DNA of 64,000 nt, taken from positions 62,001 to 126,000 of the forward strand of contig RFGC01000042.1 of assembly GCA_003697135.1 (NCBI GenBank). Direction: 5' to 3'. Under the pieces are notes generated by a model, which did not search any database, had not been told where the DNA came from, and saw nothing but the letters and a program-made list of their open reading frames with translations. Shown in pieces: positions 28,708 to 56,943 of the stretch. How positions within the stretch are numbered: position 1 is the first letter of the stretch; each line of letters starts with the position of its first letter. A program made the position numbers and the translations under genes. The DNA comes from Acidobacteriota bacterium. Its GTDB lineage: Bacteria > Acidobacteriota > Blastocatellia > Pyrinomonadales > Pyrinomonadaceae.

Positions 28708-28741
28708 GCGTCTGATAACAAAAGATACGCGTCTGATAACG
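28708..28741 (+). repeat. Two 13-mer repeats between moaD and moaE
   Basis: GCGTCTGATAACA at 28708-28720 and exact GCGTCTGATAACG at 28729-28741, 21 bases apart, begin 14 bases after the moaD stop. Confidence 0.95.
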
Positions 28742-28824
28742 TTTAGGGAATAATTTGGGGCTGAGCGAAAGCCTTAGCGAACTTCTGTGGAAAAGGTAGC
28801 TTGAGTTTTGCAGAGTAGAGAGGC

Positions 28825-29313
28825 ATGGAAAGCCGAAGCGTTGTGAATAAGAAGGGAAAGGTGGACTTTTGGGCGTTGACGACTGAGCCTTTGGATGTTG
28901 GCAGGATAGCTAGAAGGATCGTGCCTGAGACTTGTGGAGCAATAGTTACCTTAGATGGATTCGTTCGGCGATTCACGAAGGGGAAGGAGACGCTGTATTT
29001 GGTTTATGAAGCTTATGAGGCAATGGCTTTGAGAGAAATGGAAAAGCTTATTGAGCAAGCTCATGAAAAGTTTGATATAGAAAGCGTCAGCATGGTGCAT
29101 AGACTTGGCAAGCTTGAGATAGGCGAAACAAGCGTCGTTATATCTGTTGCCGCTCCTCACAGAAAGGCTGCTTTCGAGGCTTGCCAGTGGCTTATCAAGG
29201 AACTTAAAAGAACTGTCCCTATCTGGAAAAAAGAGGTTTACAAAGACGAAGAAATATGGGTTGAAGGCGAAGAGAATTTTAGTGAAAATGCGTCTGATAA
29301 CGATCAACCTTGA
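28825..29313 (+). CDS. moaE: Molybdopterin synthase catalytic subunit
   Basis: MoaE combines with MoaD to convert precursor Z into molybdopterin. The 162-residue protein has GAIVTLDGFVRRF, LVYEAYEAMALREM, VHRLGKLEIGETSVVI, HRKAAFEAC and the catalytic lysine segment VPIWKKEVY. The last few codons (ASDNDQP) lie beyond the conserved domain and contain a 13-mer repeat, so the C-terminal tail was apparently extended through it. Confidence 0.95.
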   Translation: MESRSVVNKKGKVDFWALTTEPLDVGRIARRIVPETCGAIVTLDGFVRRFTKGKETLYLVYEAYEAMALREMEKLIEQAHEKFDIESVSMVHRLGKLEIGETSVVISVAAPHRKAAFEACQWLIKELKRTVPIWKKEVYKDEEIWVEGEENFSENASDNDQP

Positions 29314-29341
29314 TGAAAGTTAATACTTGCGTCTGATAACG
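29290..29341 (+). repeat. Two 13-mer repeats at the end of and after moaE
   Basis: Exact GCGTCTGATAACG at 29290-29302, read in frame as Ala-Ser-Asp-Asn-Asp within the MoaE tail, and at 29329-29341 just after the stop. They are 39 bases apart. Confidence 0.95.
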
Positions 29342-31885: not shown

Positions 31886-31944
31886 GCGTCTGATAACGTA
31901 TAGGATTTAATGTATCACTGAAGAATCATGCGCGTCTGATAACG
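31886..31944 (+). repeat. Two 13-mer repeats downstream of the Dph6-like gene
   Basis: Exact GCGTCTGATAACG at 31886-31898 and 31932-31944 lie between convergent genes, 46 bases apart. Confidence 0.95.
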
Positions 31945-31983
31945 TTTTTGGTAGCATTAGCTACAACTCTTCTTGTTGTAGAA

Positions 31984-32658
31984 TCAGAAAAGATTTTTGT
32001 AGTTGTTCAGACTATCTGACAAAATATCAGACTTTAGCCTATCGAGCAGGCTTGTCATTTTGTCTTCAAGTGACTTTGTGAAGACCTTAGGATCGAAGCT
32101 TTCTTTTGCCTCAACCTTTTCAGGTTCGCCTATTTTGACGAAAATCTCAGGCTTGAAATTTCCCAGAAACTCGTAGCGCATAGCAAGAGGTATACAAACA
32201 GCTATCTTTACTTTCTCGATAATCCGAGAAACCCCGTGATAAAAAGAAAGCGGACGTTTGTCATTTGGCAAAATCTTGCCTTGTGGGAAGATGAGAAGAG
32301 CGGTTTTTGAATTTTCAGTCATAATTTTGGCAGCGTAGTTTATGCTTTTGACAGCTTCGCGCGGGTTTTCTCTGACGACTGAAAAAGCTCCTAACCAACG
32401 AAATGGAAAAAGCTTTTTTAGCTGTTTTTCTTCCATCATCACAAACCAATCAAATTCGGTGTGCAATGAAATTTCAAAAACAACCAAGCCGTCCCACCAG
32501 CTCGAGTGGTTAGCATAAACCAACAAAGGAGCATCATGGTTTGTGGCTAGAAAATCCAAACCACCAACCTGCATCGAATTAAAGCGTCTTTTCAGGAGAT
32601 TTCTGTTATAGATTGCAAAGATTTTGTAAAAAAAGCGATTTTTCCTTGCTTCTAACAT
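31984..32658 (-). CDS. Lysophospholipid acyltransferase (PlsC-like)
   Basis: This 224-residue membrane-associated acyltransferase has the His-X4-Asp catalytic motif in YANHSSWWDGL and the phosphate-binding FPQGKILP block. Family members acylate lysophosphatidate or related lysolipids. The FPQG variant resembles the group acting on other lipid acceptors, so the exact substrate is open. Confidence 0.85.
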   Translation of the reverse strand: MLEARKNRFFYKIFAIYNRNLLKRRFNSMQVGGLDFLATNHDAPLLVYANHSSWWDGLVVFEISLHTEFDWFVMMEEKQLKKLFPFRWLGAFSVVRENPREAVKSINYAAKIMTENSKTALLIFPQGKILPNDKRPLSFYHGVSRIIEKVKIAVCIPLAMRYEFLGNFKPEIFVKIGEPEKVEAKESFDPKVFTKSLEDKMTSLLDRLKSDILSDSLNNYKNLF

Positions 32659-32673
32659 GCTGTTCTGACAAAC

Positions 32674-32686
32674 GCGTCTGATAATG
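32674..32686 (+). repeat. 13-mer repeat variant GCGTCTGATAATG
   Basis: One-base variant of the repeat located between the acyltransferase and alanine racemase genes. Confidence 0.85.
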
Positions 32687-40350: not shown

Positions 40351-40415
40351 AGGCAAACTTTCTCGAGGTCGGGAAGGGAAGTCGAATTTTGAACCCACTA
40401 TTCCAACTCGGCAGG

Positions 40416-40877
40416 TTAGTCCATTTGCTTCAGGATAATTCTTTCACGACCTGGAACGCCAACCCTTTCGGATGTAAGTTTTTCGAGTTCTTCGATGTGG
40501 ATTTGTTCTTCTGCGATTCGTCCTTCGAGCCAGAATTTTTGCGGAAGGTCATTTTCGTCGCAGGAAGCCCAAGCGGCCATGTAGGTTTTTAGGGCTTCTC
40601 TTTCAAGTTCTAGGTCTTGTCTAAGCATCTCCTTTAGGTCACTAGACTGACGGATTTCTGCAGGCTCAACCGTGGGAGTTCCACCAAGAGCAACTATTTT
40701 GTCACCCAGTTCTTCTGCATGTTTTTGAGCTTCCTTTGCACCATTGCGAAAGAAACCCTTAAAAACCTCTCTTTCAGGTCCAGTTACCAGGTAGCTATGC
40801 TGCATGTATTGAATAACCGCTGCCAGCTCCAAAGAAAGCGCTCTGTTTAGATTTTCTAGTAATTCTGTTCTCGCCAT
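40416..40877 (-). CDS. Bacterioferritin-like ferritin-family protein
   Basis: This 153-residue four-helix protein has ferritin-type di-iron ligands: Glu in ALSLELAAVIQYM, EAQKHAEELGDKI and EEQIHIEELEKL. Bacterioferritins store iron or detoxify peroxide. The haem-binding methionine of true bacterioferritin is not obvious. The gene has a strong ribosome binding site (AAGGAGG directly upstream of ATG 40877) and a promoter at 40924-40953. Confidence 0.8.
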   Translation of the reverse strand: MARTELLENLNRALSLELAAVIQYMQHSYLVTGPEREVFKGFFRNGAKEAQKHAEELGDKIVALGGTPTVEPAEIRQSSDLKEMLRQDLELEREALKTYMAAWASCDENDLPQKFWLEGRIAEEQIHIEELEKLTSERVGVPGRERIILKQMD

Positions 40878-40923
40878 TTTGTCCTCCTTGAAAAAGTTTC
40901 TTAAAAAGAATTCCTTAAGTTTC

Positions 40924-40953
40924 AGGATAAGCAAAAAGAATATGGCTTGTCAA
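40924..40953 (-). promoter_or_regulatory. Candidate promoter of the ferritin-family gene
   Basis: Minus strand TTGACA (40948-40953) and TATCCT (40924-40929) are separated by 18 bases, about 47 bases upstream of the start codon. Confidence 0.6.
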
Positions 40954-41058
40954 GCTAAGTTCTTTATTTTCAATAAAATAGAAATGAAATTCACTTTCAG
41001 TTTCAATTTTGTTGAGGAGGCGCGAAATTTTCAAGGTACGATTTTTTTCGGAAAGGGC

Positions 41059-41088
41059 TTGACAAACATTGAGCATGTGGTTTATTGT
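41059..41088 (+). promoter_or_regulatory. Candidate promoter for the aromatic amino acid operon
   Basis: TTGACA (41059-41064) and TATTGT (41083-41088) are separated by 18 bases. The start point would fall close to the ATG of the leader peptide at 41095, so the leader message may be nearly leaderless. Confidence 0.6.
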
Positions 41089-41094
41089 TAAAGC

Positions 41095-41178
41095 ATGAAT
41101 AATTTTGCTCTCATCTTCGGCTTTTGGTTTTATGCAGGCGAAATGGCTGAGGGTGGGGGCGTGTTTAAGGAAATTTGA
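41095..41178 (+). CDS. Aromatic-rich leader peptide (attenuator)
   Basis: A 27-codon frame starts at ATG 41095 and ends at TGA 41176-41178. It is unusually rich in aromatic residues. FALIFGFWFYAG occupies residues 4-15, with four Phe, one Trp and one Tyr. It is followed 27 bases later by a perfect hairpin with a T-run (41206-41236), and then by chorismate mutase, prephenate dehydratase and DAHP synthase. This is the classic layout of a translation-coupled attenuator such as pheL or trpL. No Shine-Dalgarno sequence lies before it. Which amino acid is sensed is inference; Phe is most likely. Confidence 0.7.
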   Translation: MNNFALIFGFWFYAGEMAEGGGVFKEI

Positions 41179-41205
41179 AAGTAACCTAAAAAGAATCCCA
41201 ACCTG

Positions 41206-41236
41206 AAGCCGTGAAAAAAGAAATCACGGCTTTTTT
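41206..41236 (+). terminator. Attenuator terminator of the aromatic operon
   Basis: Arms AAGCCGTGA (41206-41214) and TCACGGCTT (41224-41232), perfect over nine bases, are followed by a T-run to 41236. They lie between the leader peptide and the chorismate mutase gene. The bases CGGCTT (41118-41123) inside the leader coding region can pair with AAGCCG of the first arm, a possible antiterminator. GGG-rich 41150-41158 can pair with 41196-41204. Confidence 0.8.
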
Positions 41237-41298
41237 GTTTTTTGGTGGATTTTGGCTGGTTAAAAATTCAGGATTTCAGAAGGTAGGAGTTGAGGAAA

Positions 41299-41604
41299 AT
41301 GAGTTTAGATGATTGGCGAAGGGAGATAGACAAAATTGACATGCAGATAGTCAAGTTACTCAATAGACGTGCAGAAATATGTAAGAAGATAGGCAAGCTG
41401 AAGCAAGAGCTTGGACTTCCAGTAATTGATCTGGAAAGGGAAAGGACAATTGTGAAAAACGTTTTGATGAACAATGAAGGTGCGATAGGTGATTTGGAGC
41501 TTTTGATGATTTTTCGTGAGGTTGTACGTCAATGCAGGAATCTGCAAATTGAAGCTCAAGCCGAATGGCCGGAATCAAACAGCGAGCGGGAGTTTGCGTC
41601 ATGA
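41299..41604 (+). CDS. Chorismate mutase (AroQ type)
   Basis: This 101-residue all-helical enzyme converts chorismate to prephenate. LDDWRREIDKIDMQIVKLLNRRAEICKKIG, in two blocks, is the AroQ helix with the catalytic Arg and Lys. The frame could also start at a TTG (41290). ATG 41299 is chosen because AGGAG at 41285-41289 lies nine bases upstream. Its stop overlaps the prephenate dehydratase start (ATGA). It is the first enzyme gene after the attenuator. Confidence 0.92.
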   Translation: MSLDDWRREIDKIDMQIVKLLNRRAEICKKIGKLKQELGLPVIDLERERTIVKNVLMNNEGAIGDLELLMIFREVVRQCRNLQIEAQAEWPESNSEREFAS

Positions 41605-42146
41605 GAAAGAAAGTAGCAATTCAAGGTTTTTCGGGTTCCTACAGTGAAGAAGCTGTAGAGAAAATGCTACATGATGATTTTGAGGTTCTTTCGTTTTTTA
41701 ACTTTGAAGATGCTTTCAGAAGCGTTCTTTGCGGCGAAGCTGATTGTGGGGTGTTTCCTATTCAGAACAAAATTGTCGGGAACATCAATCAGACCATTTC
41801 TTTGATAGAAAAAACTGGACTGAAGGTTTATGAGCAATTGAAGCTGAGGATCGAGCATGTTCTAGTTGGGACGCCGAACTCTGAGTTAGAACAGGTTAAG
41901 TTTGTTCATTCGCAAAAAGAAGCGCTTTTGCAGTGCAAAGGATTTTTTCTAAGAAATCCGAGGCTAAAACAAGTTGAGAGTTCCGACACGGCTTTGAGTG
42001 TTAAGGAAATTATGCAAAGGGGACTACCCGAGAACGCGGCTATTGCAAGCAGAAGAGCTGTGCTTGCTTATGAAGCAAGGATTTTGTGCGAAGACATCGC
42101 AGACGACCCAGAGAATTGGACTCTATTTTGTCTTGTAGGGAGATGA
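41601..42146 (+). CDS. pheA: Prephenate dehydratase, catalytic domain only
   Basis: This 181-residue protein has the dehydratase features [55 protein letters not shown] and the terminal [10 protein letters not shown]. These form the usual two-lobed domain that converts prephenate to phenylpyruvate. It ends where the catalytic domain ends, so the C-terminal ACT domain that gives phenylalanine feedback in most PheA proteins is missing. ATG 41601 overlaps the chorismate mutase stop, and its own stop overlaps the DAHP synthase start. Confidence 0.9.
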
Positions 42147-43018
42147 AGAATATGCTGGACGCAGGAAGAGATGATAAGAGAGCAAAAGACGGAAAAGGTT
42201 ACGAGGGTATTTTTTTAGCTTTGAACAAAGAATTAAAGAGGAAGACAGTAGTTAGAGTCAAGGACGTTTTGATTGGTGGTGAAGAAGCCGTTGTAATTGC
42301 AGGACCTTGCTCTGTTGAATCACGCGAGCAAGTAATTGAAACGGCTTTTGCTGTGAAAAAGTACGGAGCAGTAATGCTGCGCGGAGGAGCTTACAAACCA
42401 CGCACTTCGCCCTATGATTTTCAAGGTTTGGGAGTTGAAGGATTGAAGTTTTTACACGAAGCAGGAAAAATTGCTGGTCTTCCGGTTGTTACAGAGGTTA
42501 TGAGTGAGGAAGACATTGAAACTGTGTGCGAATATGTAGACATGCTTCAAATTGGGGCGAGAAACATGCAAAATTTTGCGCTTTTGAAGAAGGTTGCTAA
42601 AACAAGAAAGCCTGTGCTTCTAAAACGCGGACCTGCCGCTACAGTTAAAGAGTGGTTATTTGCGGCGGAGTATTTGCTGCATGGCGGGAATGAGAATGTG
42701 GTTTTATGTGAGCGTGGAATAAAAACCTTCGACAATTCTTTGAGGAATACATTAGACCTAGCGGCAGTGGCCTTGGTAAAGGAAATTTCTCATCTTCCTG
42801 TAATAGTTGATCCTTCTCATGCTACAGGAAGAAGGAGCTTGATTTCTGCTACTGCAAAAGCAGCCATTGCTGTTGGAGCGGACGGTGTTATAGTTGAAGT
42901 GCATCCGTGTCCCGAAAAAGCACTCTCGGATAGTGCCCAGCAACTGAGTTTCACGGATTTTGCTAAGATGATGACCGAGTTACAAACTCCGCTGAAAAAG
43001 ATTGCGACTTGCTTTTGA
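42143..43018 (+). CDS. aroF: 3-deoxy-7-phosphoheptulonate (DAHP) synthase
   Basis: This 291-residue type I beta DAHP synthase of the Bacillus/Thermotoga kind has [61 protein letters not shown] and the metal-binding [10 protein letters not shown]. It condenses phosphoenolpyruvate and erythrose 4-phosphate, the first step of aromatic synthesis. About 60 residues precede the catalytic part; no clear regulatory domain was recognised there. It is the third gene of the operon, coupled to pheA by ATGA. Confidence 0.95.
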
Positions 43019-43191
43019 CAGAAGTAGAACGAGAGAAAAGATTTTCGTTAGCTGAAGGTGTATGGTTAAATGAATTTTGAATCTTTTAGCTTGTCTGAAA
43101 CTTCTACGTTGGGGTAAATGCTGTATAGTGCTAAGTGGCAGTTTTCTTTGGTGTGAATATGTTAGAGTAAGGGGTTGTGCCTACATCTTTT

Positions 43192-43219
43192 GCGTCTGAT
43201 AACAGATATTATGTAAAGC
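43192..43219 (+). other. Candidate chromosomal dif site (XerC/XerD)
   Basis: A 28-base site with XerC-side arm GCGTCTGATAA (43192-43202), central CAGATA (43203-43208) and XerD-side arm TTATGTAAAGC (43209-43219). The arms have the ATAA and TTAT inner ends of known dif sites, and the right arm agrees well with the Bacillus TTATGTAAACT and E. coli TTATGTTAAAT arms. It lies in a gene-free stretch. The plus strand has G 49 and C 19 in 43019-43191 but about G 28 and C 32 in 43220-43380. Confidence 0.7.
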
Positions 43220-43278
43220 TAGGTTAAGAGAAGGCAAACTAGCCTTCTTTCTCGAAACTTCCTTGAAACAAAAATCCC

Positions 43279-43303
43279 GTAGCGCAAGCCACTTTGTCGC
43301 TAC
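43279..43303 (+). other. Hairpin upstream of metK
   Basis: Arms GTAGCG (43279-43284) and CGCTAC (43298-43303) with a 13-base loop, followed by TGTCTTTT. It may be a weak terminator for transcription coming from the aromatic operon. It is not part of a known SAM riboswitch as far as I can see. The rest of the 370-base gap 43019-43388 holds only the dif candidate and the metK promoter. Confidence 0.4.
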
Positions 43304-43309
43304 TGTCTT

Positions 43310-43338
43310 TTGACACAAGTTACGAAAAGAAATAAAAT
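43310..43338 (+). promoter_or_regulatory. Strong sigma-70-type promoter for metK-ahcY
   Basis: Perfect TTGACA (43310-43315), 17 bases, TAAAAT (43333-43338), 50 bases upstream of the metK start. Confidence 0.8.
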
Positions 43339-43388
43339 TTGAAATTTACAAGTTTGCAAGACTACAAGACAAAAAGGAGCGAAAAGAA

Positions 43389-44555
43389 TTGACAAGGAAA
43401 GATTTTTTGTTCACTTCAGAGTCGGTAACGGAAGGTCACCCAGACAAGATAGCCGATCAAATATCTGATGCTATCTTGGACGCGATACTCGAGCAAGACC
43501 CAGAGGGTCGAGTAGCATGCGAGACAATGGTAACAACCGGTTTGGCCATAATAGCTGGTGAGATAACTACGAAAGCAAGAGTAAACTACAAAAAGATTGT
43601 TCGAGAAACCATAGAAGAAATCGGTTACACAGACGCGAATTTTGGATACGACTGCAAAACGCTATGCGTGATTGACGCTATAGGCACGCAATCACCGGAT
43701 ATAGCGATGGGAGTTGACACGGGAGGCGCCGGAGATCAAGGCATGATGTTCGGCTTCGCGTGTGATGAGACACCAGAATTGATGCCGCTTCCGATTCAAC
43801 TAGCGCACAATCTCACGAAAAGGATCTCCCAAGTGAGAAGAAGCAAGGAGATAGATTATCTGAGGCCGGACGGAAAATCCCAAGTAACAGTTGAGTATAG
43901 AGACGGAAAACCTTACAGGGTTGAAGCTATAGTCATCTCAGTTCAGCACTCAGACGACGTATCAAACGAGCAAATAAGACAGGACATTTTGGAGAAAGTC
44001 ATAAAACCGACGATACCAGCACATTTCCTAGACGAAAGAACAAAATATCACATAAACCCGACCGGAAGGTTCGTGATAGGCGGACCTATGGGAGACGCCG
44101 GACTCACGGGAAGGAAGATCATCGTTGATACATACGGAGGCTATGCACCACACGGCGGCGGAGCTTTCTCTGGCAAAGATCCAACGAAAGTTGATCGCTC
44201 AGGTGCCTACATGGCAAGATACATCGCCAAGAACATAGTAGCGGCTGGACTTGCCCAAAAATGCACCATACAGTTAGCTTACGCCATAGGTATAGCAGAG
44301 CCAGTATCAGTGCTGGTTGACACCCACGGCACAGGAGTAGTGAGCGATGAGACGTTATCAACACTAGTCAGAGAAAACTTTCAATTGACGCCCAGAGGCA
44401 TAATAGAAGAGCTAGACCTGCGAAGGCCGATTTACAAGAGAACTGCCAGATTCGGGCATTTTGGAAGAACGGAAGAAGATTTCACGTGGGAAAGGACAGA
44501 TAAAGCAGAAATACTGAGATCGCAAGTGAACCAAACAGTCAGGAGGAGTGCATAG
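43389..44555 (+). CDS. metK: S-adenosylmethionine synthetase
   Basis: MetK makes S-adenosylmethionine from methionine and ATP. The 388-residue protein has [53 protein letters not shown] and [19 protein letters not shown]. It starts at a TTG with AAGGAG about nine bases before it. Codons end mainly in A or C, unlike the G/T-ending codons of plus-strand genes to the left. This agrees with a strand-composition switch at the dif site. It is followed directly by ahcY. Confidence 0.98.
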
Positions 44556-45833
<1,278 letters not shown>

Positions 45834-45848
45834 AACTTTAGTCTGGGA

Positions 45849-48122
45849 TCAGGTTTTTGCCTTTGAAAGAAGATAAATACCGACGGCACAAAACAGAATT
45901 AGTGGTGCCCAAACCGCTACTTTAGGTTGAATCCAACCGCTTAGCGCCATCTGTTCCATTAGATTGCTTGCTCCTATAAAGGCAACCCAAAGGGCTACTG
46001 AATAACCGATCCCAGCCATACTCTTGTAGGTTTTCAGCGAGAAAGAAGTAGCTACAATTATGGCAATCAGGGGAAGCAAAACAGAAGAGTACCTTTTCTC
46101 TAGGGCTGTGATGTAGAGTCTCTGTTCACTATCGGAAATCTTTAAAGATATGTCCGAGTTTTTTATCCTTTCAGCAATTTCGGCTGCTGTCATATAAGAA
46201 GGTTTGAGCTGCGTTCCGAGCATTTCTGGTTCAAGGTCTTCAACAAGAATGCTTTCGACCCAACTATCAGTCTTCACAGTTCCTTCCAGTAAGAGCAACT
46301 TGTTTGCAGGTTTCAGGGGTTCGATGTTGCAAAAGCTTTCGGATTCGCTAGAAAGGAGAACCTCCTTGGAGGTTAATATGGACTTCACTTTATTTCCATC
46401 GAACTCGAAGAGATAGAAATCACTTCCCTGCCCTTTCTCTCGGTCGTATGCTTTTAGGGAAAGCAAGCGATTGTCGGCAATAGCCCAAATTCTGCTGCCA
46501 ACATTGACAGTTGTAACACCTCTCTGGCGTATTGTTGTTCTAAGCACGTCCTGACGTTTATTGGCTTCTGGAGCTACCTTCTCTTGGATAACCCAATTTA
46601 CAATGCCTACGACAAGGCCTATGAGAACACAAGGAAGAAGAACAACCCTGTAGATGCTTTGCCCTGAAGCTGTGAGGGTGATCAACTCGTTCTGTCTGGA
46701 TTTGATGGTGACAGCTGCCAGGCAGGCAATCATCATGCAAGAAGGAGAGATTTGCAAATAAACGTAGGGCAATAGATAGACTAGATACTGGATAAGCAGT
46801 TTTGTCCCGTTAGTCATGGCTCCAGCGAATTTCCACAGCTCAAATGCCGTGAAAACAAGGTATGTTGTGAGCAAGAACAAGCAGGCTAGGATGTAGAACT
46901 TCAGCAAACCCCTAGCCAAATCTAGATCGGAAAGTCTTGGAAATTTGAGGACTAAGAAACTGCCGGACTCAGTTTTCCTGGTGAAAGCCTTCCTGAATGC
47001 TTTGAGGAATCCTGACTTGAGAGAGTCCATAGGTTTGTCCGCTGCAAGTGCAAGCATCAGAATCAAAGGGATAGTGGAAATAGGCATAAAGCTTCCGACC
47101 GTAGGACTAACTTGCCCTGTTCGCGCCATCTGCTCACCTAGTAAGCCGACTAGGTAAAAGATAATAAGAATCAAAAGGGATACGAAGATGCCATTTCCCC
47201 TACTGTGTCTTTTTAGCCTTGCGCCAAGCACAGCACCTAGAAAGGCGAAGATCAATGGCGCGGTGGATAGGACGATTCTGCGGTTGAAAAGAATCTGGGC
47301 TTCTAACTTGTCTTTTCCGTCTCTTTGCAAGGTTGCTTTGTAGAGTTCTTCTAATCCGAGTTCCTCTAGGGATTCCTCAGTTTTCTTCAGCCTTTCCTCC
47401 AGTTCAGCTTTTTTAGTTTTCACAGCAACTCTTACGCTTTCGGACTTTTCAAATGCAATAGCTTCTTTGGGAAAGGAAATGACCCAAGCATCTTTTAACA
47501 CAAACTCCACGTAATCGTCTGGAACAGACATATAGCCTTCATTGGCTATCGTGATGGCTTTCTCGCTAGGAGTTTCTCTGAAGACGATTATTCCCTGCCA
47601 TGCATTTTGATTAAGATCACCTTCTCTCACGTAAACGGTCAAGTTAGGAATGTCTGTGCTTAGACTGCCGGGTTCGAGCGGAGAAGCTAGTTTCGCCAAG
47701 GCGGTTTTCAAAGCCACCTGACGGACTATCTTAGATGCTGCAGGGACAGCTTTCCAGTTTATAAAAAAGGCAAACAGAGAAAGGAAAAATCCCAGAACTA
47801 CTATTGGTAGGACTATCTGAGCGTAGCTTGCGCCTGAAGCTTTTATCGCAATGGTCTCTCTATCGGAATGCATTTTCCCGATACCTATGAGGACACCAAC
47901 CAGAATAGCCATTGGGCAGGTGAATGAAATAACGCTGGGAAGCAACGCAAAGGTTAACTGCCAAAGTAGAAAGTTCGGCAGGTTGGGGTTAAAAAAGATG
48001 TCCGCATAACGTCCTGCTTGTTGGACAAACAAAACCACTGTTAGCAATATCCATGCTGAAAGGAAGTAAGGGAAAATGGACTGAACAACATAAACGCTGA
48101 TTTTCAGGCTGAGATTTCTCAT
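45849..48122 (-). CDS. Fused LptF-LptG lipopolysaccharide transport permease
   Basis: The 757-residue protein has two LptF/LptG (YjgP/YjgQ) permease domains in one chain. The first ends near residue 370 (RHSRGNGIFVSLLILIIFYL, AADKPMD) and the second occupies about residues 395-757. Each half has three transmembrane helices, a periplasmic beta-jellyroll and three more helices. In most bacteria LptF and LptG are separate proteins that, with LptB, power lipopolysaccharide export. The fused form is plausible in this phylum. Its start overlaps recO by four bases. Confidence 0.9.
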   Translation of the reverse strand: MRNLSLKISVYVVQSIFPYFLSAWILLTVVLFVQQAGRYADIFFNPNLPNFLLWQLTFALLPSVISFTCPMAILVGVLIGIGKMHSDRETIAIKASGASYAQIVLPIVVLGFFLSLFAFFINWKAVPAASKIVRQVALKTALAKLASPLEPGSLSTDIPNLTVYVREGDLNQNAWQGIIVFRETPSEKAITIANEGYMSVPDDYVEFVLKDAWVISFPKEAIAFEKSESVRVAVKTKKAELEERLKKTEESLEELGLEELYKATLQRDGKDKLEAQILFNRRIVLSTAPLIFAFLGAVLGARLKRHSRGNGIFVSLLILIIFYLVGLLGEQMARTGQVSPTVGSFMPISTIPLILMLALAADKPMDSLKSGFLKAFRKAFTRKTESGSFLVLKFPRLSDLDLARGLLKFYILACLFLLTTYLVFTAFELWKFAGAMTNGTKLLIQYLVYLLPYVYLQISPSCMMIACLAAVTIKSRQNELITLTASGQSIYRVVLLPCVLIGLVVGIVNWVIQEKVAPEANKRQDVLRTTIRQRGVTTVNVGSRIWAIADNRLLSLKAYDREKGQGSDFYLFEFDGNKVKSILTSKEVLLSSESESFCNIEPLKPANKLLLLEGTVKTDSWVESILVEDLEPEMLGTQLKPSYMTAAEIAERIKNSDISLKISDSEQRLYITALEKRYSSVLLPLIAIIVATSFSLKTYKSMAGIGYSVALWVAFIGASNLMEQMALSGWIQPKVAVWAPLILFCAVGIYLLSKAKT

Positions 48123-48871
48123 TCTATTCCCTCTTTTACAGAATGAAGGAGATGCTCAATTACCCCATGCAAATAGCTTGCTTCTTTCAAGAAGTTTCCT
48201 TCAATGTTTTTGATGAAGTTTTGTGGATCGAGTTTCAGAGCTAAACGAAAGATTTCCAGATGTTCCTTGTTGAGAGAAGTTGACGCCTTCTCAGCTCTGC
48301 GACAAGAGGCGCAAAAAGCGTTGAAATTGTTAATGAAAATTCTCAAGTGATAATCTTCATCAAACCGCTTTTTACATCCTCCGCAGTATTTCCAATTGGG
48401 AAGGTAACCACTAAGCTTAAGCATCCAAATTCCAAAGTAAAGCGTCAAAAGCTTCATTTCGTTGGGAACACTTTGGGCGTTTGGGAGATTGAGGCTACTT
48501 GCCGTTTCTAGGCAAGCTTTTACCATTCGGTAGGTTGTTTCTTCGTTGACTCCTTGGGGAATGAAGCTTATAAGAGTGTCAGCAATAAATGCGAAATAAG
48601 GAAGTAGTAATGGTTTGCTAACGAGGTGAAAATAAGATTTCTTTAGCTCTGCCTTTTCTATCCTCACAAGCTCTCTTTCTCTGTGTGAAAAGGTCACGTT
48701 AACACTTGAGAACGGTTCTAGAGTGCCTGAGAACCGGCTCTTTACGTTTCTTGCTCCGTTAGCGACTCCTCTTAGGACACCGTAGTTTGGGGTTAGAAAT
48801 GTCACCACTTTATCCGCTTCGGCTAGCGGGAATGAACTAAGAACTATGGCTTCTGTTTCGTAGTAAAACAT
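48119..48871 (-). CDS. recO: DNA repair protein RecO
   Basis: RecO assists loading of RecA onto SSB-coated DNA in the RecFOR pathway. The 250-residue protein has an N-terminal OB-fold (YYETEAIVLSSFPLAEADKVVTFLTP) in two blocks, a helical core and a C-terminal zinc-binding part (CGGCKKRF, CASCRR). It is coupled to the LptFG gene by a four-base overlap and preceded by a small membrane protein gene. Confidence 0.93.
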   Translation of the reverse strand: MFYYETEAIVLSSFPLAEADKVVTFLTPNYGVLRGVANGARNVKSRFSGTLEPFSSVNVTFSHRERELVRIEKAELKKSYFHLVSKPLLLPYFAFIADTLISFIPQGVNEETTYRMVKACLETASSLNLPNAQSVPNEMKLLTLYFGIWMLKLSGYLPNWKYCGGCKKRFDEDYHLRIFINNFNAFCASCRRAEKASTSLNKEHLEIFRLALKLDPQNFIKNIEGNFLKEASYLHGVIEHLLHSVKEGIE

Positions 48872-48883
48872 GCTGTCATGCTG

Positions 48884-49054
48884 TTAGGAAAACAAAAGAT
48901 AGAAAATCCAAGCTATCCCTAGGCTAATCCCGACAAACTTTGCGAAAGTTTTTATGCCGAGGAGAAGCCTTTCTTTAGTGTTTCCCTCGGATAAAATAGC
49001 GAACATTATTGATATGAATAGAGAAAAAAGGCAAAGGTAAACTAAGTGCGTCAT
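48884..49054 (-). CDS. Small two-helix membrane protein (56 residues)
   Basis: A short frame begins at ATG 49054 and ends at TAA 48884-48886. The peptide starts MTHLVYLCLFSLFISIMF and has a second hydrophobic stretch (FVGISLGIAWIFYLLF) after a charged middle GNTKERL. Its start overlaps the stop of the upstream DUF6677-like gene (ATGA), and recO begins 12 bases after it. This tight packing supports it as a real gene. No family was recognised. Confidence 0.65.
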   Translation of the reverse strand: MTHLVYLCLFSLFISIMFAILSEGNTKERLLLGIKTFAKFVGISLGIAWIFYLLFS

Positions 49055-49431
49055 TTTTTCCTCCTCGAAGATATATCGAAACAGTTGAGAATCATGAGGT
49101 AGTTCATCAAACCCGCGATTTCGACGAGTCTCCCGCCGTATTCAAAAGTAATTTTTGATGCCGCTTCTGGAGAACTGTTTCCGAACAAGAGAAAGATAAT
49201 GTATCCTAGCCCGCTTCCCAGACGTGCGAATATGTTGAGAAAGTGTAGTAGGAAGCTATCCCTGCTGATGCTAGCGCCTGGATAATCCAATCCGCCGTTT
49301 GCGGCCCCTATCGCAAACATTAGAGCAAAAGTGACTGCCACCACGATGCCGGTTTTGATTCGCCTTTCGAGAATGTGCCCTAGTCCTGGGCAGAACCATG
49401 CTAAAGCGACCGAAAGAGCAGTTTTCTCCAT
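49051..49431 (-). CDS. DUF6677-like small membrane protein
   Basis: The 126-residue protein has three or four membrane helices. The start KTALSVALAWFCPGLGHILE resembles TM2/DUF6677 proteins, whose PGxGH motif follows the first helix, and the end FEYGGRLVEIAGLMNYLMIL matches the EYG...AGLMN pattern of DUF6677. Function unknown. It leads an apparent operon with the 56-residue protein, recO and lptFG. Confidence 0.7.
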   Translation of the reverse strand: MEKTALSVALAWFCPGLGHILERRIKTGIVVAVTFALMFAIGAANGGLDYPGASISRDSFLLHFLNIFARLGSGLGYIIFLLFGNSSPEAASKITFEYGGRLVEIAGLMNYLMILNCFDISSRRKK

Positions 49432-49453
49432 AAGAGTTTATTTTACTCAAGGT

Positions 49454-50626
49454 TTAGTCATAAAGCAGGTATCTTTGGCGCTTTTTTGCGAAAGTTTCTT
49501 CGTCTTCCTTCCATGACTGAACGATCTCTTGCAGGCTGCATCCGCTTTCTATTTGCACTCTCAATTTGTTTGTTCCGGCGATTACATCGAATGGATTTTT
49601 GTCAAAGACGTATTCGTATGGGGGTTCTTTCCATCTAAAGTCAAGAGGGTAGAGATCGTGTATGGTTTTCAGCAACGCTATTCCTGTTAGGACAGGCTTG
49701 AACTCCCTTCTATTTGTGACATGCAGAAAAACTCCACCACAGCTTTTTCCTGAGTGCTTTTGGAATGTTGGTATGAAATTCACTGGGCGGAAGATCACCC
49801 CTGGGAGTTGTAGTGCGTTCATCTCTTCGGCCAATTTTCTTGCATCTATGTATGGTGCGCCGATCATCTCGAAAGGTCTAGTGGTTCCTCTTCCTTCAGA
49901 GACTTGAGTTCCTTCAAAGAAGACTGTTCCGGGAAAAACGACAGCCGTATCAACGGTTGGCATGTTAGGTGATGGCATGACCCAAGGGGCGTCGGTTTCG
50001 TCGTAGAAGTAATTTCTCTTCCAGCCCTGCATCTCCAATACCTGCAAGCTGCAGTTAATGTTGAATTCTTGGTTAAACATCAATGCAAGTTCTCCAACCG
50101 TCATTCCATGTCTCATGGGTATCGGGAACATACCTACAAAAGATTCGTAGCCGCTTTCAACCAAGTTTCCTTCTATTTCTATCCCACCTATTGGGTTGGG
50201 TCTGTCTAGCACTATGAATTCCTTGTTGTTTTCTGCACATGCCAACATGGAGTTGGCCATTGTGTAGATGTAAGTATAGACCCTACACCCTACATCTTGC
50301 AGGTCAAACAGCAAGGTGTCTATATCTTTCAGCATCTCCGCAGTAGGCTTTCTGGTTTCACTGTAAAGAGAGAACGCGGCAATGCCTCTATACGTAGAGT
50401 GAGGCGTTTCTATCATGTTGTCTTGAACATCTGTGTTGAATCCGTGCTGTGGGCCAAATATCGCTTTTAGTTTTAGGTCTTTGTCTTCAAGCAGTAGGTC
50501 TGCTGCGAAGTTGTATTTGTGGTTGACGGAAGCCTGATTGCATATCAACCCTATTCGTTTGCCTTTCAACAGGGACTTTTTCTCCGATAAAAGCCTTTCT
50601 AAGCCAAGTTTTACTTTTCGCTTCAT
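49454..50626 (-). CDS. DUF1343 protein, NamZ-like exo-beta-N-acetylmuramidase
   Basis: The 390-residue protein belongs to the DUF1343 family, whose Bacillus member NamZ releases terminal MurNAc from peptidoglycan fragments (GH171). Conserved blocks are IGLICNQASVN, FGPQHGF, LLFDLQDVGCRVYTYIYTM, VLDRPNPIGG, MPSPNMPTVDTAV and FEGTQVSEGRGTTRPFE. The protein has no signal peptide, so it would act in the cytosol unless exported otherwise. It pairs functionally with the NagZ-like enzyme at 12003-13868. Confidence 0.9.
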   Translation of the reverse strand: MKRKVKLGLERLLSEKKSLLKGKRIGLICNQASVNHKYNFAADLLLEDKDLKLKAIFGPQHGFNTDVQDNMIETPHSTYRGIAAFSLYSETRKPTAEMLKDIDTLLFDLQDVGCRVYTYIYTMANSMLACAENNKEFIVLDRPNPIGGIEIEGNLVESGYESFVGMFPIPMRHGMTVGELALMFNQEFNINCSLQVLEMQGWKRNYFYDETDAPWVMPSPNMPTVDTAVVFPGTVFFEGTQVSEGRGTTRPFEMIGAPYIDARKLAEEMNALQLPGVIFRPVNFIPTFQKHSGKSCGGVFLHVTNRREFKPVLTGIALLKTIHDLYPLDFRWKEPPYEYVFDKNPFDVIAGTNKLRVQIESGCSLQEIVQSWKEDEETFAKKRQRYLLYD

Positions 50627-50738
50627 GATTTCCTTATTTCCTTCGGAGTAGTTAAAATTTCATCTTCGTTCAGGAAACTGTGTTTTGTCAATTTGTTAGA
50701 CCTGGTTTGAAGTTTTAAGATGGATTTTTTGGGTTCTT

Positions 50739-51275
50739 ATGCCGGGGAATTTTCATGCGACTACCGTCATCATGGTCAAGAAAGACGGTAAAACTGTGAT
50801 GGCGGGTGATGGGCAAGTTACTCTGGGCGAAACGGTTTTGAAAAGTAACGCAAGAAAGGTTCGCCGTCTATACAATGACAAGGTTCTCGTGGGGTTTGCA
50901 GGCGCTACAGCTGACGCTCTTGCTCTTCTTTCGAGATTAGAATCAAAGCTGGAAGAGTGTCAAGGGCATTTGGGCAAGGCTGTGATTGAACTTAGCAAAG
51001 ACTGGAGGACTGATAGGATTCTGAGGCATTTGGAGGCACTGATGATAGTTGCTGACAAAGAGAGTGCGTTTTTGGTTTCCGGCAAGGGCGATGTCATATC
51101 TCCTGAAGAAGGATTGCTTGCTGTGGGATCGGGAGGGATGTATGCTTTGGCTGCGGCACGCGCTCTCATGAAGCATACTAATCTTTCCGCTCGCGATATA
51201 GCAGAAGAGTCTCTCAAAATTGCGAGTAGCATCTGCATTTACACAAATTCTGAAATCGTTGTGGAGGAGTTGTGA
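50739..51275 (+). CDS. hslV: ATP-dependent protease subunit HslV
   Basis: HslV is the proteolytic core of the HslVU (ClpQY) complex. The 178-residue protein has the start [26 protein letters not shown], given here in outline; the mature N-terminal Thr follows cleavage of the short propeptide. [20 protein letters not shown] and ICIYTNSEI match the family. It overlaps hslU by one base, so they are translated together. Confidence 0.97.
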
Positions 51276-52636
51276 TGTTGAGCTTGGAGAAAAAGTTAGA
51301 TGAGTTAACGCCTCGCCAGATCGTTGAAGAGCTTGACAAGTATATCGTAGGGCAGACCAAGGCGAAAAGAGCTGTCGCCATTGCCTTGAGGAACCGCATC
51401 CGTAGGCAAAAGCTTCCGCGTAGCATTGCCCAGGAAATTCTCCCGAAGAATATCTTAATGATAGGCCCGACGGGCGTTGGCAAAACAGAAATCGCAAGGC
51501 GTCTTGCAAAGCTCTCCAATTCCCCTTTTGTGAAGGTAGAAGCCTCGAAGTTCACCGAAGTAGGCTACGTTGGCAGGGACGTTGAAAGCATGGTGAGAGA
51601 ACTCGTAGAGGTTGCTGTTGAGATGGCAAAGCAATCTGCTTTTGAGGAAGTTCGTCCTAAAGCGGAAGCAAATGTCGAAGAAAGATTGCTTGACATTCTT
51701 TTTCCTCGCTTTGATCAAGAACATAGTGACGCTGATAGAACTGAGAGATTCAATCGCACTAGGGAAAAGCTACGTCAACAGCTGCGCGCAGGTGAACTTG
51801 ATGACAGATTTGTCGAAGTTGATGTTCAGGATCGTTTTGTTCCCTTCATTGACGTTGTCGGAATTGGTGGACAGGGTTTTGAAGAAATGGGAGTCAATTT
51901 CGGCGATGTTTTGAGCCATTTATTTCCACGGAAAACAAAGAAAAAAAGGCTCAAAGTGTCTGAGGCAAGGCAGTATCTGCTCAGGGAAGAACAAGAAAAT
52001 CTGATTGATATGGAAGCGGTTATCCGATCTGCTATCGAGAGAGCCGAAAACTCGGGGATTATCTTCTTGGATGAAATAGACAAAATTGCTGGTAGAGAGT
52101 CTGGTGTCGGACCTGATGTGTCGCGTGAAGGAGTTCAAAGGGACCTTCTGCCGATAGTCGAAGGAACTAATGTTAATACTCGCTATGGGATGGTTAACAC
52201 GGAACATATCCTGTTTATAGCCGCTGGTGCTTTTCATGTCTCGAAACCCTCGGATTTAATTCCAGAGTTGCAGGGTAGATTTCCGATTAGAGTTGAGCTG
52301 GAAGCATTAGGTGCTGAAGATTTTAAGCGAATCCTTAAAGAACCTAAGAATTCGCTTATTAAGCAGTATGAAGCGCTTTTAAGCACTGAAGGCATTACAC
52401 TCCGCTTCACTGACGACGCTATTGAAGCCATAGCCGAAATGGCTGATTATGTTAATCGAATGACTGAAAATATTGGAGCGCGCAGACTTCACACGCTAAT
52501 GGAAAGGCTTTTGGAAGATATAAGTTTTGAAGGGGCTGATCTCGAAGAAAAACTCCAGATTATCGATGCGGATTTTGTTAAGAGAAAGCTTGAAGCAGTT
52601 GTTAAAGATGTTGACTTAAGTAATTATGTATTATAA
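51275..52636 (+). CDS. hslU: ATP-dependent protease ATPase subunit HslU
   Basis: HslU is the AAA+ unfoldase that feeds HslV. The protein of about 453 residues has [21 protein letters not shown], Walker [29 protein letters not shown], Walker [10 protein letters not shown] and the C-terminal domain ending in VDLSNYVL, which reaches into HslV. The start is ATG 51275, five bases after GGAGGAG; a GTG lies three bases earlier. Confidence 0.97.
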
Positions 52637-52664
52637 AGCTGTTGCTTAAAATCCTGCTTAAGTT

Positions 52665-53690
52665 ATGCACTCTACCTTTATTAAAGCAAATTTAGTGTTT
52701 ATATTTCTTGCATTGTTTAACTTCGCTTGTGGTAAGCGTCTTCCGCCTATGCCTCCTTCCTCTCGAGTTTCTCCACCAGTAAAAGTGGCTGGATTTCAAA
52801 GGGGAAGTAATCTAATCTTGTCATGGCAGCTTCCTCCTGGCACTTCGAGAACTGATGTTTATCGTTTTGTCGAATCATCTACTGCTTCGCCCGGAGTAAC
52901 CAAGGAGGATTTTTCTGCCCGCAGCATCTTGATAGCTTCTGTGTTAGGTGATGCTTCATACTCGGATAGGTTGGAATTTGCTGATCAGCCAGTTCGTGTT
53001 TACTATGCCGTGAGATTTGTCAATGAATTTGGTCAAAAAAGCGATTTTTCTGAGTTTCTGGTTATTCAACCCGTTCCGAATGTTTCGCTTCCGCCTTCCC
53101 TTCTTTCTGTTGATGTCTCGCAAGACAAGCTTACCGTTAAGTGGAAGGAACCAAATGAGAATGTTGATGGTTCATCTCCTCCTAATGTTCGAGGTTATAA
53201 TGTCTATCGCGTTGAGAAGGGCAGTGAATTAAAAAAGCTTAATTCTTCTCCTGTTTCATCGGATTCTTTTGATGATTTTTTCTTTGAGTTTGGAGTGTCT
53301 TATAAGTATTTCGTCAGAAGTGTCTCACTTGACAAAGATGGAAATTTCATAGAAAGTGACGATTCAAATATTTTTGAGGTCGTGCCTAAAGACGTTTTCC
53401 CGCCTTCTCGTCCTGAAGGGCTAAGTGTAGCAGCTTCGCCGGGCGCTATTTCGATTTTCTTTGCTGCAAGCCCTGAAAAGGATGTAGTTGGTTATTTTGT
53501 TTTCCGTTCTGAGGACCCGAATTTGCCGCTTTTGCAATGGCAAAAACTGAATGTTGAGCCTTCTGAAATTACTGCTTTTAGCGATCGGAATGTTCAAAGC
53601 GGAAAGACTTACTATTACTTTGTGAGAGCTGTAGACAAGTTTGGCAACTTGAGTGAGCCATCTGAAGTAGTGGCTGAGACTTTACCTTGA
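52665..53690 (+). CDS. Lipoprotein with fibronectin type III domains
   Basis: The 341-residue protein has a short signal sequence with a Cys at residue 22 (FNFACGKR), a likely lipidation site. It is followed by a proline-rich linker and three fibronectin type III-like modules, about residues 40-130, 140-230 and 240-340. Their Trp/Tyr pattern is visible in WQLPPGTSRTDVYRF, VKWKEPNENVDG and YYYFVRAVDKFGN. It is likely anchored to the outer membrane or cell surface and may bind polysaccharide or protein. Function unknown. Confidence 0.75.
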   Translation: MHSTFIKANLVFIFLALFNFACGKRLPPMPPSSRVSPPVKVAGFQRGSNLILSWQLPPGTSRTDVYRFVESSTASPGVTKEDFSARSILIASVLGDASYSDRLEFADQPVRVYYAVRFVNEFGQKSDFSEFLVIQPVPNVSLPPSLLSVDVSQDKLTVKWKEPNENVDGSSPPNVRGYNVYRVEKGSELKKLNSSPVSSDSFDDFFFEFGVSYKYFVRSVSLDKDGNFIESDDSNIFEVVPKDVFPPSRPEGLSVAASPGAISIFFAASPEKDVVGYFVFRSEDPNLPLLQWQKLNVEPSEITAFSDRNVQSGKTYYYFVRAVDKFGNLSEPSEVVAETLP

Positions 53691-53699
53691 GGAGTTTCT

Positions 53700-54494
53700 A
53701 TGAAGTTAGCAAGGTTCGTTTATGAGGGAGTAGTTTATTGTGGACAGGTCAGAGACAGTGAAGTTTTTCCGCTGGGAAAGTCGGAATTTTCCTTGGTGAA
53801 AGATGTCTGGGAAAAATGGGAAAATGTTATCAGACCCATTTCCTTATCGAAGGTAAAGCTTCTTCCACCAGTTCAACCATCGAAAATAGTCTGCGTTGGT
53901 AGAAACTATGTTGCTCATGCGTTAGAACTAGGAAACTTAGTTCCTGAAGAGCCGCTCATTTTTTTGAAACCGCCATCATCTTTAATCGGTCATGAGGATT
54001 TTATACTTCTTCCCCCTCAATCGTCTAGAGTTGAATGCGAAGGAGAGCTGGCAATCGTTATCAGACGCGAATGTCAGTTCCTTCCTCTCGACTCTGATGT
54101 ATCCGATTATATTCTCGGCTACACTTGCCTGAATGATGTAACTGCTAGAGATATACAAAAGAAAGATATCCAATTCACACGTGCGAAGTCTTTCGATACT
54201 TTCTGTCCTCTGGGGCCGTTTATCGCAACAGACATAAATCCTTCTAATCTCTGCATAACTACAAAGGTTAACGGAAACATAAAACAACAAGCTCGAACTT
54301 CTCAAATGGTTTTTTCGGTTGATTTTCTGGTAAGATATATCTCTCATCACATGACCTTGATGCCTGGTGATGTGATAGCCACGGGAACTCCTGCAGGAGT
54401 TTCAGAACTTCACGATGGCGATGTTTGCGAAGTTGAAATAGAAGGCATCGGTGTTTTGAGAAACTTTGTGAAAAAGAGGATAAAGGGATTATGA
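53700..54494 (+). CDS. Fumarylacetoacetate hydrolase family protein
   Basis: This 264-residue metal-dependent hydrolase/decarboxylase has [24 protein letters not shown], the metal ligands [10 protein letters not shown] and [14 protein letters not shown], and [12 protein letters not shown]. Members act on 2-oxoacids such as acylpyruvates or oxaloacetate. The substrate is not determinable. It overlaps the transaldolase gene by four bases. Two 13-mer repeat copies, in reverse orientation, lie inside it (53825 and 54056). Confidence 0.88.
53825..53837 (-). repeat. Reverse-oriented 13-mer variant inside the FAH-family gene
   Basis: The minus strand reads GGGTCTGATAACA, the same variant as at 24842. 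It is read in the gene as Asn-Val-Ile-Arg-Pro. Confidence 0.8.
54056..54068 (-). repeat. Reverse-oriented 13-mer inside the FAH-family gene
   Basis: The minus strand reads exact GCGTCTGATAACG. It is read in the gene as Ile-Val-Ile-Arg-Arg, just after the metal-ligand motif. Confidence 0.95.
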
Positions 54495-55141
54495 AGTTCT
54501 TTATTGATACGGCAAATCTGGATGAGATTAAACAAGCTTCTGAAATGGGATTGATTGATGGTGTAACAACTAATCCTTCTCTCATAGCAAAGGAAGGTAA
54601 CGTTGATTTCAAAGAACATATACGCAAGATTTGCGAGTTGGTAAGTGGAGATGTATCTGCTGAAGTAACAGCAGTTGATACCGAAGGAATGCTTCAGCAA
54701 GCGAGAGAATTGGCTTCAATAGCTCCGAATGTCGTCATAAAGTGTCCGCTTACACTTGAGGGACTCAAAGCTACCAAAATCCTAAGCAGCGAAAATATAA
54801 AGGTAAATGTCACTTTGTGCTTCTCTCCAGCTCAAGCTTTGTTAGCTGCTAAGGCGGGCGCAACCTATGTTTCCCCTTTCATAGGAAGACTAGATGATGT
54901 CGGACATGACGGAATGCAGCTGATTCGCGATATCGTCCAAATATACAAAAATTACAACTTCCCTACGCAAGTTTTGGCCGCTTCCATAAGACATCCTAGG
55001 CACGTGATTGAATCAGCATTAGCTGGCGCTCACGTGGCTACAATCCCGTTTAAGGTTATACAACAGCTCGTGAAACATCCCTTGACGGACAAGGGACTAG
55101 ATGCATTCCTGGCTGACTGGAAAAAGAGCGGAAGAAGTTGA
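54491..55141 (+). CDS. tal: Transaldolase (TalC/MipB type)
   Basis: This 216-residue short transaldolase of the pentose phosphate pathway shows [28 protein letters not shown], the Schiff-base lysine in [19 protein letters not shown]-type context (the catalytic region ending [13 protein letters not shown]) and [10 protein letters not shown]. The short form is related to fructose-6-phosphate aldolase, so either activity is possible. It overlaps the preceding gene by four bases. Confidence 0.92.
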
Positions 55142-55174
55142 TAAAGTTTGCGAATTTGTTATGATGTCTAAGTT

Positions 55175-55630
55175 ATGAAAGTGCTTTTAGCAACAGATGG
55201 AGGCAAACATAGCCAAGCGGCGGTAGAGGCTATACGAATTCTGAACCCTGAAACACTGACAGAACTCAAAATTATCTCAGTAATAGACATGAGTGTCCCG
55301 CTAGCGATTGACATATATGCGGGATACCTTCCTTCGACTGCTGAGATTGAAGCTGCAGCAAAAGAAACTGCTGAAAATATACTCAAAGAAGCATCCCAAA
55401 AAGTGTCAGAGATGCTTGGGAATAAACCAGTCAAAATAACAACGGAAATCTTGGTAGGCTCACCAGAAAGCGCAATTGTCGAAACTGCTGAGCAAATGCC
55501 CGCAGACCTTATAATTGTCGGTTCTCATAGCTACAACCGCTGGGAAAGATTGCTCCTAGGTTCGGTCTCCGACTCTGTCGTGCATCATGCTCACTGTTCT
55601 GTATTGATTGTCAAAAGCCAAGCAGGTTAA
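55175..55630 (+). CDS. Universal stress protein (UspA family)
   Basis: This 151-residue single-domain protein has LLATDGGKHSQAAVEA at the start and the nucleotide-binding GSHSYNRWERLLLGSVSDSV near the end, which matches the G-2X-G-9X-G-(S/T) pattern. Role: stress response, mechanism not defined. Confidence 0.9.
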   Translation: MKVLLATDGGKHSQAAVEAIRILNPETLTELKIISVIDMSVPLAIDIYAGYLPSTAEIEAAAKETAENILKEASQKVSEMLGNKPVKITTEILVGSPESAIVETAEQMPADLIIVGSHSYNRWERLLLGSVSDSVVHHAHCSVLIVKSQAG

Positions 55631-55636
55631 ACTCTT

Positions 55637-56419
55637 ATGCTTTACTTCGAGAAGCTCGGAACAGACTCGAAAAATGTGTGTGTTTTTCTTCATGCTTTTC
55701 CGCTTGATCGTGAAATGTGGCAGCCACAAGTAGAAGCATTGAAGGAAAAGATGCAGGTGATTTTGATTGACTTGCCGGGATTTGGAAAGAGTCTGCCCAT
55801 CAAAAATTTGTCGATGGAATTTATGGCTTCCGAGGTCATAAGAACGCTCGATAGCTTAAAAATAGAAAAAGCTATCTTTGTGGGGCTTTCAATGGGCGGA
55901 TATGTTATCTTCAACCTCTATAGGCTCTTTCCGCAAAGAGTCTCAGCAATGGTTCTATGCGACACGACTCCAGCTTCCGACTCTGAAGAAAGAAAATCAA
56001 TGCGGTTTGAGTTGATAGAACAAATCAAATCACAAGGGGTTGAGGTCCTAGCTCAACAAATGCTCCCCAACCTCGTTTCAAAACATACAGCCCTTAATAA
56101 CACTCTTCTTATGGAGTGGTTAAGACAAAAATTTCTTAACGTAAATCCTGAAGCTGCAGTTTCAGCTCTCAAAGCCATGGCAGATCGCAAAGATCATACT
56201 GAATGGATTTCTAACATAAACGTCCCTACCTTACTTATTTTCGGCGAAGAAGATAAGGTAACGAACATCGAAATGGCTGAAAAGATGAACTCTGTCATTG
56301 CAAATTCGTCTCTTGTAAGAATCGCAAATGCTGGTCATTACTCCAATCTAGAAAATCCTGAAGGGTTCAACTCAGCGTTGATTGGATTTATAGAAAGGCA
56401 TTTTCCCAACGACAAGTGA
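55637..56419 (+). CDS. Alpha/beta hydrolase
   Basis: This 260-residue protein has the oxyanion region VFLHAFPLDREMW, the nucleophile elbow GLSMGGYV, the acid-site loop IFGEEDKVT and the final His in ANAGHYSNLENP. It looks like the 3-oxoadipate enol-lactonase/esterase group. The substrate is unknown. Its stop overlaps the GTG start of the DUF402 gene. Confidence 0.88.
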   Translation: MLYFEKLGTDSKNVCVFLHAFPLDREMWQPQVEALKEKMQVILIDLPGFGKSLPIKNLSMEFMASEVIRTLDSLKIEKAIFVGLSMGGYVIFNLYRLFPQRVSAMVLCDTTPASDSEERKSMRFELIEQIKSQGVEVLAQQMLPNLVSKHTALNNTLLMEWLRQKFLNVNPEAAVSALKAMADRKDHTEWISNINVPTLLIFGEEDKVTNIEMAEKMNSVIANSSLVRIANAGHYSNLENPEGFNSALIGFIERHFPNDK

Positions 56420-56943
56420 AAGTTCTTAACATAAACGCAAGAAAGCTCAACCAAAAAACTCAAAAGTCATGGCAGGCCGAGCTGATTACCCAGAACGAGA
56501 AGTTCATTCTTCTTTCTGGACAGTTCGAGAAAGAAATATGGCATCCCCATCTAAACGTTATCAGACGCGGCACAATCTCCTATGAGTTCTTTTGGTGGGA
56601 AAAGTGGTATAGTATATTCAGATTTCACGAGCCAGATGGTAAGTTCAAAATCTTCTACTGCAACATAAATTTGCCACCTATTGTCTCAGATAACACTTTA
56701 GATTATGTTGATCTTGACATAGATATAATTGTCCGAGAGGACATGTCATACAAAATTCTCGACTTAGAAGAATTCCAACAAAACAGCTTGAAGTTCTCTT
56801 ATCCCGAAGAAATCGTAAAAAAATGCTTCAAAAGCCTTTGTGAGCTACAAGCAATGATAAACGCTCGCTCCTTTCCTTTCAACCTTCCTCTCGACCTTCC
56901 CCTAACTGGTTTAATTCTCCAACGTTATCAAACTCAACCCTAA
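56416..56943 (+). CDS. DUF402 domain protein
   Basis: This 175-residue protein has a GTG start and a DUF402 core (RWY-like WWEKWYSIFRFHEPDGKFK, YYC-like FYCNINLPPIVS, LDYVDLDIDIIV, YPEEIVKKC). Characterised relatives are nucleoside tri- and diphosphate phosphatases or RNA-associated proteins. The exact activity is not known here. A reverse-oriented exact 13-mer repeat lies inside at 56556-56568. Confidence 0.75.
   Translation: MKVLNINARKLNQKTQKSWQAELITQNEKFILLSGQFEKEIWHPHLNVIRRGTISYEFFWWEKWYSIFRFHEPDGKFKIFYCNINLPPIVSDNTLDYVDLDIDIIVREDMSYKILDLEEFQQNSLKFSYPEEIVKKCFKSLCELQAMINARSFPFNLPLDLPLTGLILQRYQTQP
56556..56568 (-). repeat. Reverse-oriented 13-mer inside the DUF402 gene
   Basis: The minus strand reads exact GCGTCTGATAACG. 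It is read in the gene as Asn-Val-Ile-Arg-Arg. Confidence 0.95.

Follow-up and report, generated by a model that had tools for sequence, protein, structure and literature searches.

A candidate dif site in an acidobacterial replication terminus shares its XerC-side arm with a polar, possibly fork-trap-like array

Is the 28 bp sequence at 43192-43219 the site on which XerC and XerD act in this chromosome (dif), and is it also where replication ends? The window, the whole stretch of 64,000 nucleotides analysed here, comprises bases 62001-126000 of contig C19 (165154 bp) in a 2.79-Mb draft genome of 47 contigs. The original prediction read the sequence as dif and placed the replication terminus in the window. 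We conclude with high confidence that the sequence is dif. We also found what the original prediction had missed: copies of the left arm of the site make up a large polar array that converges near the switch between replichores. The site and its arms are as follows.

43192-43219, plus strand: dif site, 28 bp (11-bp left arm, 6-bp centre, 11-bp right arm)
43192-43202, plus strand: left arm of dif, taken as the XerC side by comparison with E. coli dif; one unit of the polar array consists of this arm plus base 43203
43209-43219, plus strand: right arm of dif, the XerD side by analogy; outside any array

The sequence at 43192-43219 is GCGTCTGATAA-CAGATA-TTATGTAAAGC. Its right arm resembles known XerD arms (TTATGTAA-type), as had been claimed, and its location is intergenic, between the genes for DAHP synthase (42086-43018) and metK. 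We scored both strands of the 165-kb contig with a matrix built from six known dif sites, and the 28-mer ranked first. The full site was found, within 3 mismatches, at this one place in the whole genome; a search for other dif-like 28-mers, suggested earlier as a check, thus gave none. Seventeen of 162 genomes of the class contained a match to the 28-mer within 3 mismatches. With the centre left free and at most one mismatch in the arms, matches were found in 76 of the 162 genomes, mostly as a single copy, compared with 1/162 for the reversed pattern. The two 11-bp arms are conserved among relatives and the 6-bp centre is variable, which bears out the predicted 11-6-11 division. The more distant flanks are not alike between relatives. 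An A at 43185, 7 bases upstream of dif and outside the 28-mer, is invariant in 13/13 genomes. Some relatives have 2-5 dif-like sites (G086, on contigs C27, C176, C80, C122 and C278; also G122, G134 and G154), possibly marks of mobile elements that use Xer.

The proteins expected to act at dif are encoded in the genome. There are two tyrosine recombinases; one exceeds the XerD cut-off, and XerC is the top match of the other, which scores 3.6 bits below the XerC cut-off. An FtsK gamma domain is also encoded. Because dif had already been predicted in Acidobacteria by Kono and colleagues (PMC3025954), a dif site here was to be expected.

We found that a short KOPS-like motif changes strand at dif. 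We analysed the terminus regions of five genomes first and of eight more later as a held-out set (13 regions, 2.24 Mb in total). We chose AGGGAAG among polar k-mers after inspecting the first five regions. Its best flip interval included dif in 12 of the 13 regions, among them 7/8 of the held-out ones (the exception was G022). In a 200-kb region of E. coli MG1655, used as a control, KOPS flipped at dif (20/20) and the XerC arm occurred once. AGGGAAG is a candidate FtsK-orienting motif. In the window its position is:

40375-45083, no strand: span of the AGGGAAG copies closest to dif, at 40375 (plus) and 45077 (minus); the best flip interval of the motif includes dif

The gene next to dif is metK; the closest metK found is 83% identical and comes from a Pyrinomonadaceae bacterium (Acidobacteriota).

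43389-44555, plus strand: metK, which adjoins dif in 10/13 genomes, in either relative orientation

It is very improbable that the 28-mer is a conserved regulatory element of metK rather than dif: it lies 153-485 bp upstream of metK in 10 of 13 genomes, as such an element might, but it is 2.4, 7.8 and 19.5 kb away in the other three, occurs in both orientations (parallel to metK in 4 genomes, antiparallel in 9), coincides with the AGGGAAG flip, shows arm-centre-arm conservation as in dif, and matches no Rfam family. A riboswitch at the 28-mer was considered and rejected, as the sole Rfam match in the window is a tRNA.

Strand composition did not behave as predicted. It had been said to change at 43.2 kb, and the maximum of cumulative GC skew was to be sought there. 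Computed over the whole contig, the maximum falls instead at C19:117904 (~55904 in the window), ~12.7 kb to the right of dif; a local rise in AT skew at 43-46 kb overlaps metK-ahcY. From dif to ~55.9 kb the strand-corrected third-position skew was 0.12, compared with 0.21 expected if the switch were at 116.8 kb of the contig and -0.21 if it were at dif. By this measure the stretch from dif to the skew maximum is still part of the left replichore. GC skew gives an imperfect indication of where forks meet (PMC6199493). The placement of dif and of the terminus in the window is supported by the conserved and usually single site, the Xer recombinases, the FtsK gamma domain, the KOPS-like flip at dif and the replichore switch on the same contig. 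Based on these results we infer that 43192-43219, as a candidate XerC/XerD site, very probably serves chromosome dimer resolution.

A search for further copies of dif gave matches common to the left arm alone, which is how the array was found. This array is polar, spans the terminus and is built of the left arm, GCGTCYGATAAY, of which this genome has 84 copies. There were 78 exact copies of the 12-mer GCGTCTGATAAC genome-wide and 0 of the reversed pattern. The 12-mer had a single orientation on each contig; the exception was C19, the dif contig, on which all array sites are plus up to dif and all minus from 115826 on. Within the window, GSGTCYGATAAY was observed 21 times and 0.04 were expected. 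The array sites other than dif are:

7254-10237, plus strand: six array sites of 12 bp each (7254, 7356, 8826, 10124, 10163 and 10226), around and inside minus-strand mutS
24765-24947, plus strand: four array sites (24765, 24807, 24842 and 24936)
28708-29340, plus strand: four array sites (28708, 28729, 29290 and 29329)
31886-32685, plus strand: three array sites (31886, 31932 and 32674)
53826-54068, minus strand: two array sites of opposite orientation (53826 and 54057)
56557-56568, minus strand: one array site of opposite orientation

Orientation of the sites is independent of genes, as seen in the six plus sites at mutS. The right arm had no array comparable to that of the left arm. Profiling of the other contigs in this genome covered 3-kb flanks. 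Sites often occur in clusters of 2-5, and their number here (84) compares with roughly 0-21 in relatives; the high copy number and the clustering suggest a recent local expansion. Among the papers returned by a literature text search with the core sequence, those listed were unrelated.

The array is also polar in relatives. We counted GCGTCYGATAAY in the 162 class genomes and listed its positions for 18. In the 13 terminus regions, 114 copies had the orientation that reads toward the switch and 0 had the opposite one; for this count the flip point was defined by skew alone in seven genomes and by array sites in some others. Permuted motifs (n = 200) gave means of 0.36 and 0.38 per strand and a maximum of 4. 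A single flip per genome fits 102/102 array sites, dif excluded. Because all 13 genomes are from one family, these counts are not independent events. Single substitutions abolished the excess of the motif unless they fell at position 2 or at either of the two Y positions. Array density was 9.4 per 100 kb within 20 kb of the flip and 0.4 at 80-100 kb, and the array reaches out from the terminus for roughly 60 kb in both directions, with a longer reach in this genome. Compared with ORFs, 48 sites were on the same strand as the gene, 21 on the opposite strand and 33 outside ORFs of 100 aa. At positions 12-13 the array favours C then G, whereas dif has T then A. In five genomes (G092, G110, G103, G112 and G014) strict-motif sites were one-sided, and four others (G044, G052, G130 and G151) have a dif with the same arm and no array. 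Outside the class, a phylum-wide search for the motif gave counts at the control level. We regard it as practically certain that the array is real and polar. Facing pairs of array sites occur on several contigs in G051 (C22, C35 and C71) and G024 (C72, C287 and C827), as if these genomes had more than one replicon or terminus.

We found that the array flip is separate from dif in those relatives in which the two can be told apart. For the window, the interval is:

43204-56000, no strand: interval of the switch in array polarity and GC skew; array flip between 43203 and 53826, GC-skew maximum at ~55904

In this genome the array could flip anywhere from dif to 53.8 kb, including just to the right of dif, and the separation of dif from the flip therefore rests here on skew and on the relatives. 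In five genomes (G072, G076, G078, G023 and G014) the array flip interval leaves out dif, by ~9 to 15 kb; in three of these, G072, G076 and G023, the skew maximum falls inside the interval. The skew maximum within 30 kb of dif lay on its XerD-arm side in 11/13 genomes; in the two exceptions, G014 and G078, the array flips on the expected side. Of the 10 genomes that were informative for strand-corrected skew, 8 favoured a switch where the array flips, G014 was neutral and G022 (with only two informative genes) favoured the opposite. Dif orientation relative to metK agreed with the side on which the flip lies in all 13 genomes. The simplest interpretation is that movement of the switch point was accompanied by inversion of dif at its place upstream of metK. 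Selection may act on dif orientation.

Some neighbours of the switch point recur. A gene for a 76-aa DUF465 protein (L180, G072:C1:1555218-1555448, and its orthologues) is within ~0.4 kb of it in 10/13 genomes, with ssb ~2 kb away; both may reflect conserved gene order only. At 50739-52636 in the window, a gene for a proteasome-like subunit adjoins one for a Clp-type AAA ATPase, an arrangement that resembles the HslVU pair.

We propose that the 12-mer array works in termination as a polar, fork-trap-like set of sites, recognised with XerC-arm specificity, and we put the probability of this reading, in which both fork arrest and a binding protein are postulated, at roughly 0.5. It fits best because the array is strictly polar, is confined to the terminus and flips at the replication strand switch and not at the point where FtsK motifs converge. 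In this model, the XerC-side arm sequence would double as a one-way sign, GCGTCYGATAAY, reading toward the replication strand-bias switch. A putative protein with XerC-arm specificity, either XerC or another reader of the same sequence, would bind the array sites, and the bound sites would form a polar barrier, such that forks could enter the terminus and could not leave it. The innermost facing sites would then set the place where forks meet, and FtsK would be guided separately to dif, a few kb aside, by AGGGAAG-type motifs. Dif would be tied in orientation to its replichore because it carries the sign too. The presence of the same arm in the dif of array-free genomes suggests that Xer function maintains the arm and that the array draws on the same specificity. 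The different preferences of array and dif at positions 12-13 indicate that the reader may not be XerC.

Like known fork traps, the terminus has several non-palindromic sites in opposite orientations on its two sides. The search for a known terminator protein covered Tus, which was found in 0/58 class genomes (the E. coli control was positive). Among the conserved neighbours of the switch point (DUF465, SSB, accA, a GNAT acetyltransferase and similar genes) there was no clear candidate for a terminator gene. The stronger proposal, that a third kind of bacterial fork trap evolved independently here, with XerC (or a protein of like specificity) blocking forks in one direction from single dif arms and with dif itself as a terminator, is tentative and in our view rather less likely to be right than wrong.

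The array might instead be a second FtsK-orienting (KOPS-like) signal, or another segregation signal, that directs the translocase to the terminus and has no effect on forks. Its leading-strand bias and its peak density near the terminus are like those of KOPS and AIMS, and FtsK gamma is encoded. However, where the two can be resolved, the 12-mer flips 9-15 kb from dif (this genome being compatible with a flip at either place), whereas AGGGAAG flips at dif, as does KOPS in the E. coli control, and array sites between dif and the switch would take FtsK beyond dif. The 12-mer is also sparse, 12 bp long, intolerant of substitution and terminus-confined. AGGGAAG is the better KOPS candidate here, and we think a segregation signal unlikely.

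We give a similarly low chance to a role for the array in Xer recombination, in which single XerC half-sites would keep XerC close to dif or bring it there, or label sister termini so that they synapse, and in which replication would impose the orientation for some other reason. This would account for an array unit that is the 11-bp XerC-side arm, for the conservation of that arm in the dif of array-free genomes and for the right arm being without repeats. In contrast, a reservoir of half-sites needs no polarity, and 114 versus 0 was observed; the preference at positions 12-13 is unlike that of dif; and E. coli has no such array. Finally, that the repeats are remnant arm copies of mobile elements integrating at dif, as the several dif-like sites in relatives such as G086 might suggest, is scarcely credible, since remnants would share the orientation of dif on both sides, whereas the array inverts across the switch in every genome with two-sided sites and has sites inside housekeeping genes such as mutS. 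An integrated element spanning 31.9 to 43.2 kb and bounded by arm copies was ruled out because the copies are genome-wide and polar.

The proposed fork-trap-like array has features of several known systems. The site itself is like other XerC/XerD-dif sites in its 28-bp 11-6-11 structure, its TTATGTAA-type XerD arm, its usually single copy near the terminus and the KOPS-like motifs that converge on it; it differs in having an XerC arm that recurs as the unit of a polar array, and an orientation that follows the replichore. KOPS, SRS and other architecture-imparting sequences also have a leading-strand bias that grows toward the terminus, but the 12-mer is biased 114 to 0, is confined to the terminus and flips at the skew switch, not at dif. 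The matS sites of the MatP terminus macrodomain are likewise confined to the terminus region; matS is near-palindromic, whereas the array motif is strictly oriented. Tus-Ter and RTP-Ter consist of short, non-palindromic terminus sites that point inward, in opposite orientations on the two sides (layout in PMC6549158). In contrast to these, the array here has an unrelated site sequence that it has in common with a dif arm, has far more sites in this genome and occurs where Tus is absent.

The chromosomal fork traps that have been described are Tus and RTP only, each in narrow clades (PMC6549158), and the array appears to be a stop system for replication that has not been described before. In a phylum other than theirs, a polar array built from the sequence of a dif arm would show how fork traps can arise. 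If the proposal is true, dimer resolution and replication termination use one DNA-recognition code. Within one terminus, the convergence of FtsK-type motifs, at dif, is set apart from the switch in replication strand bias, and this bears on whether replication ends at dif.
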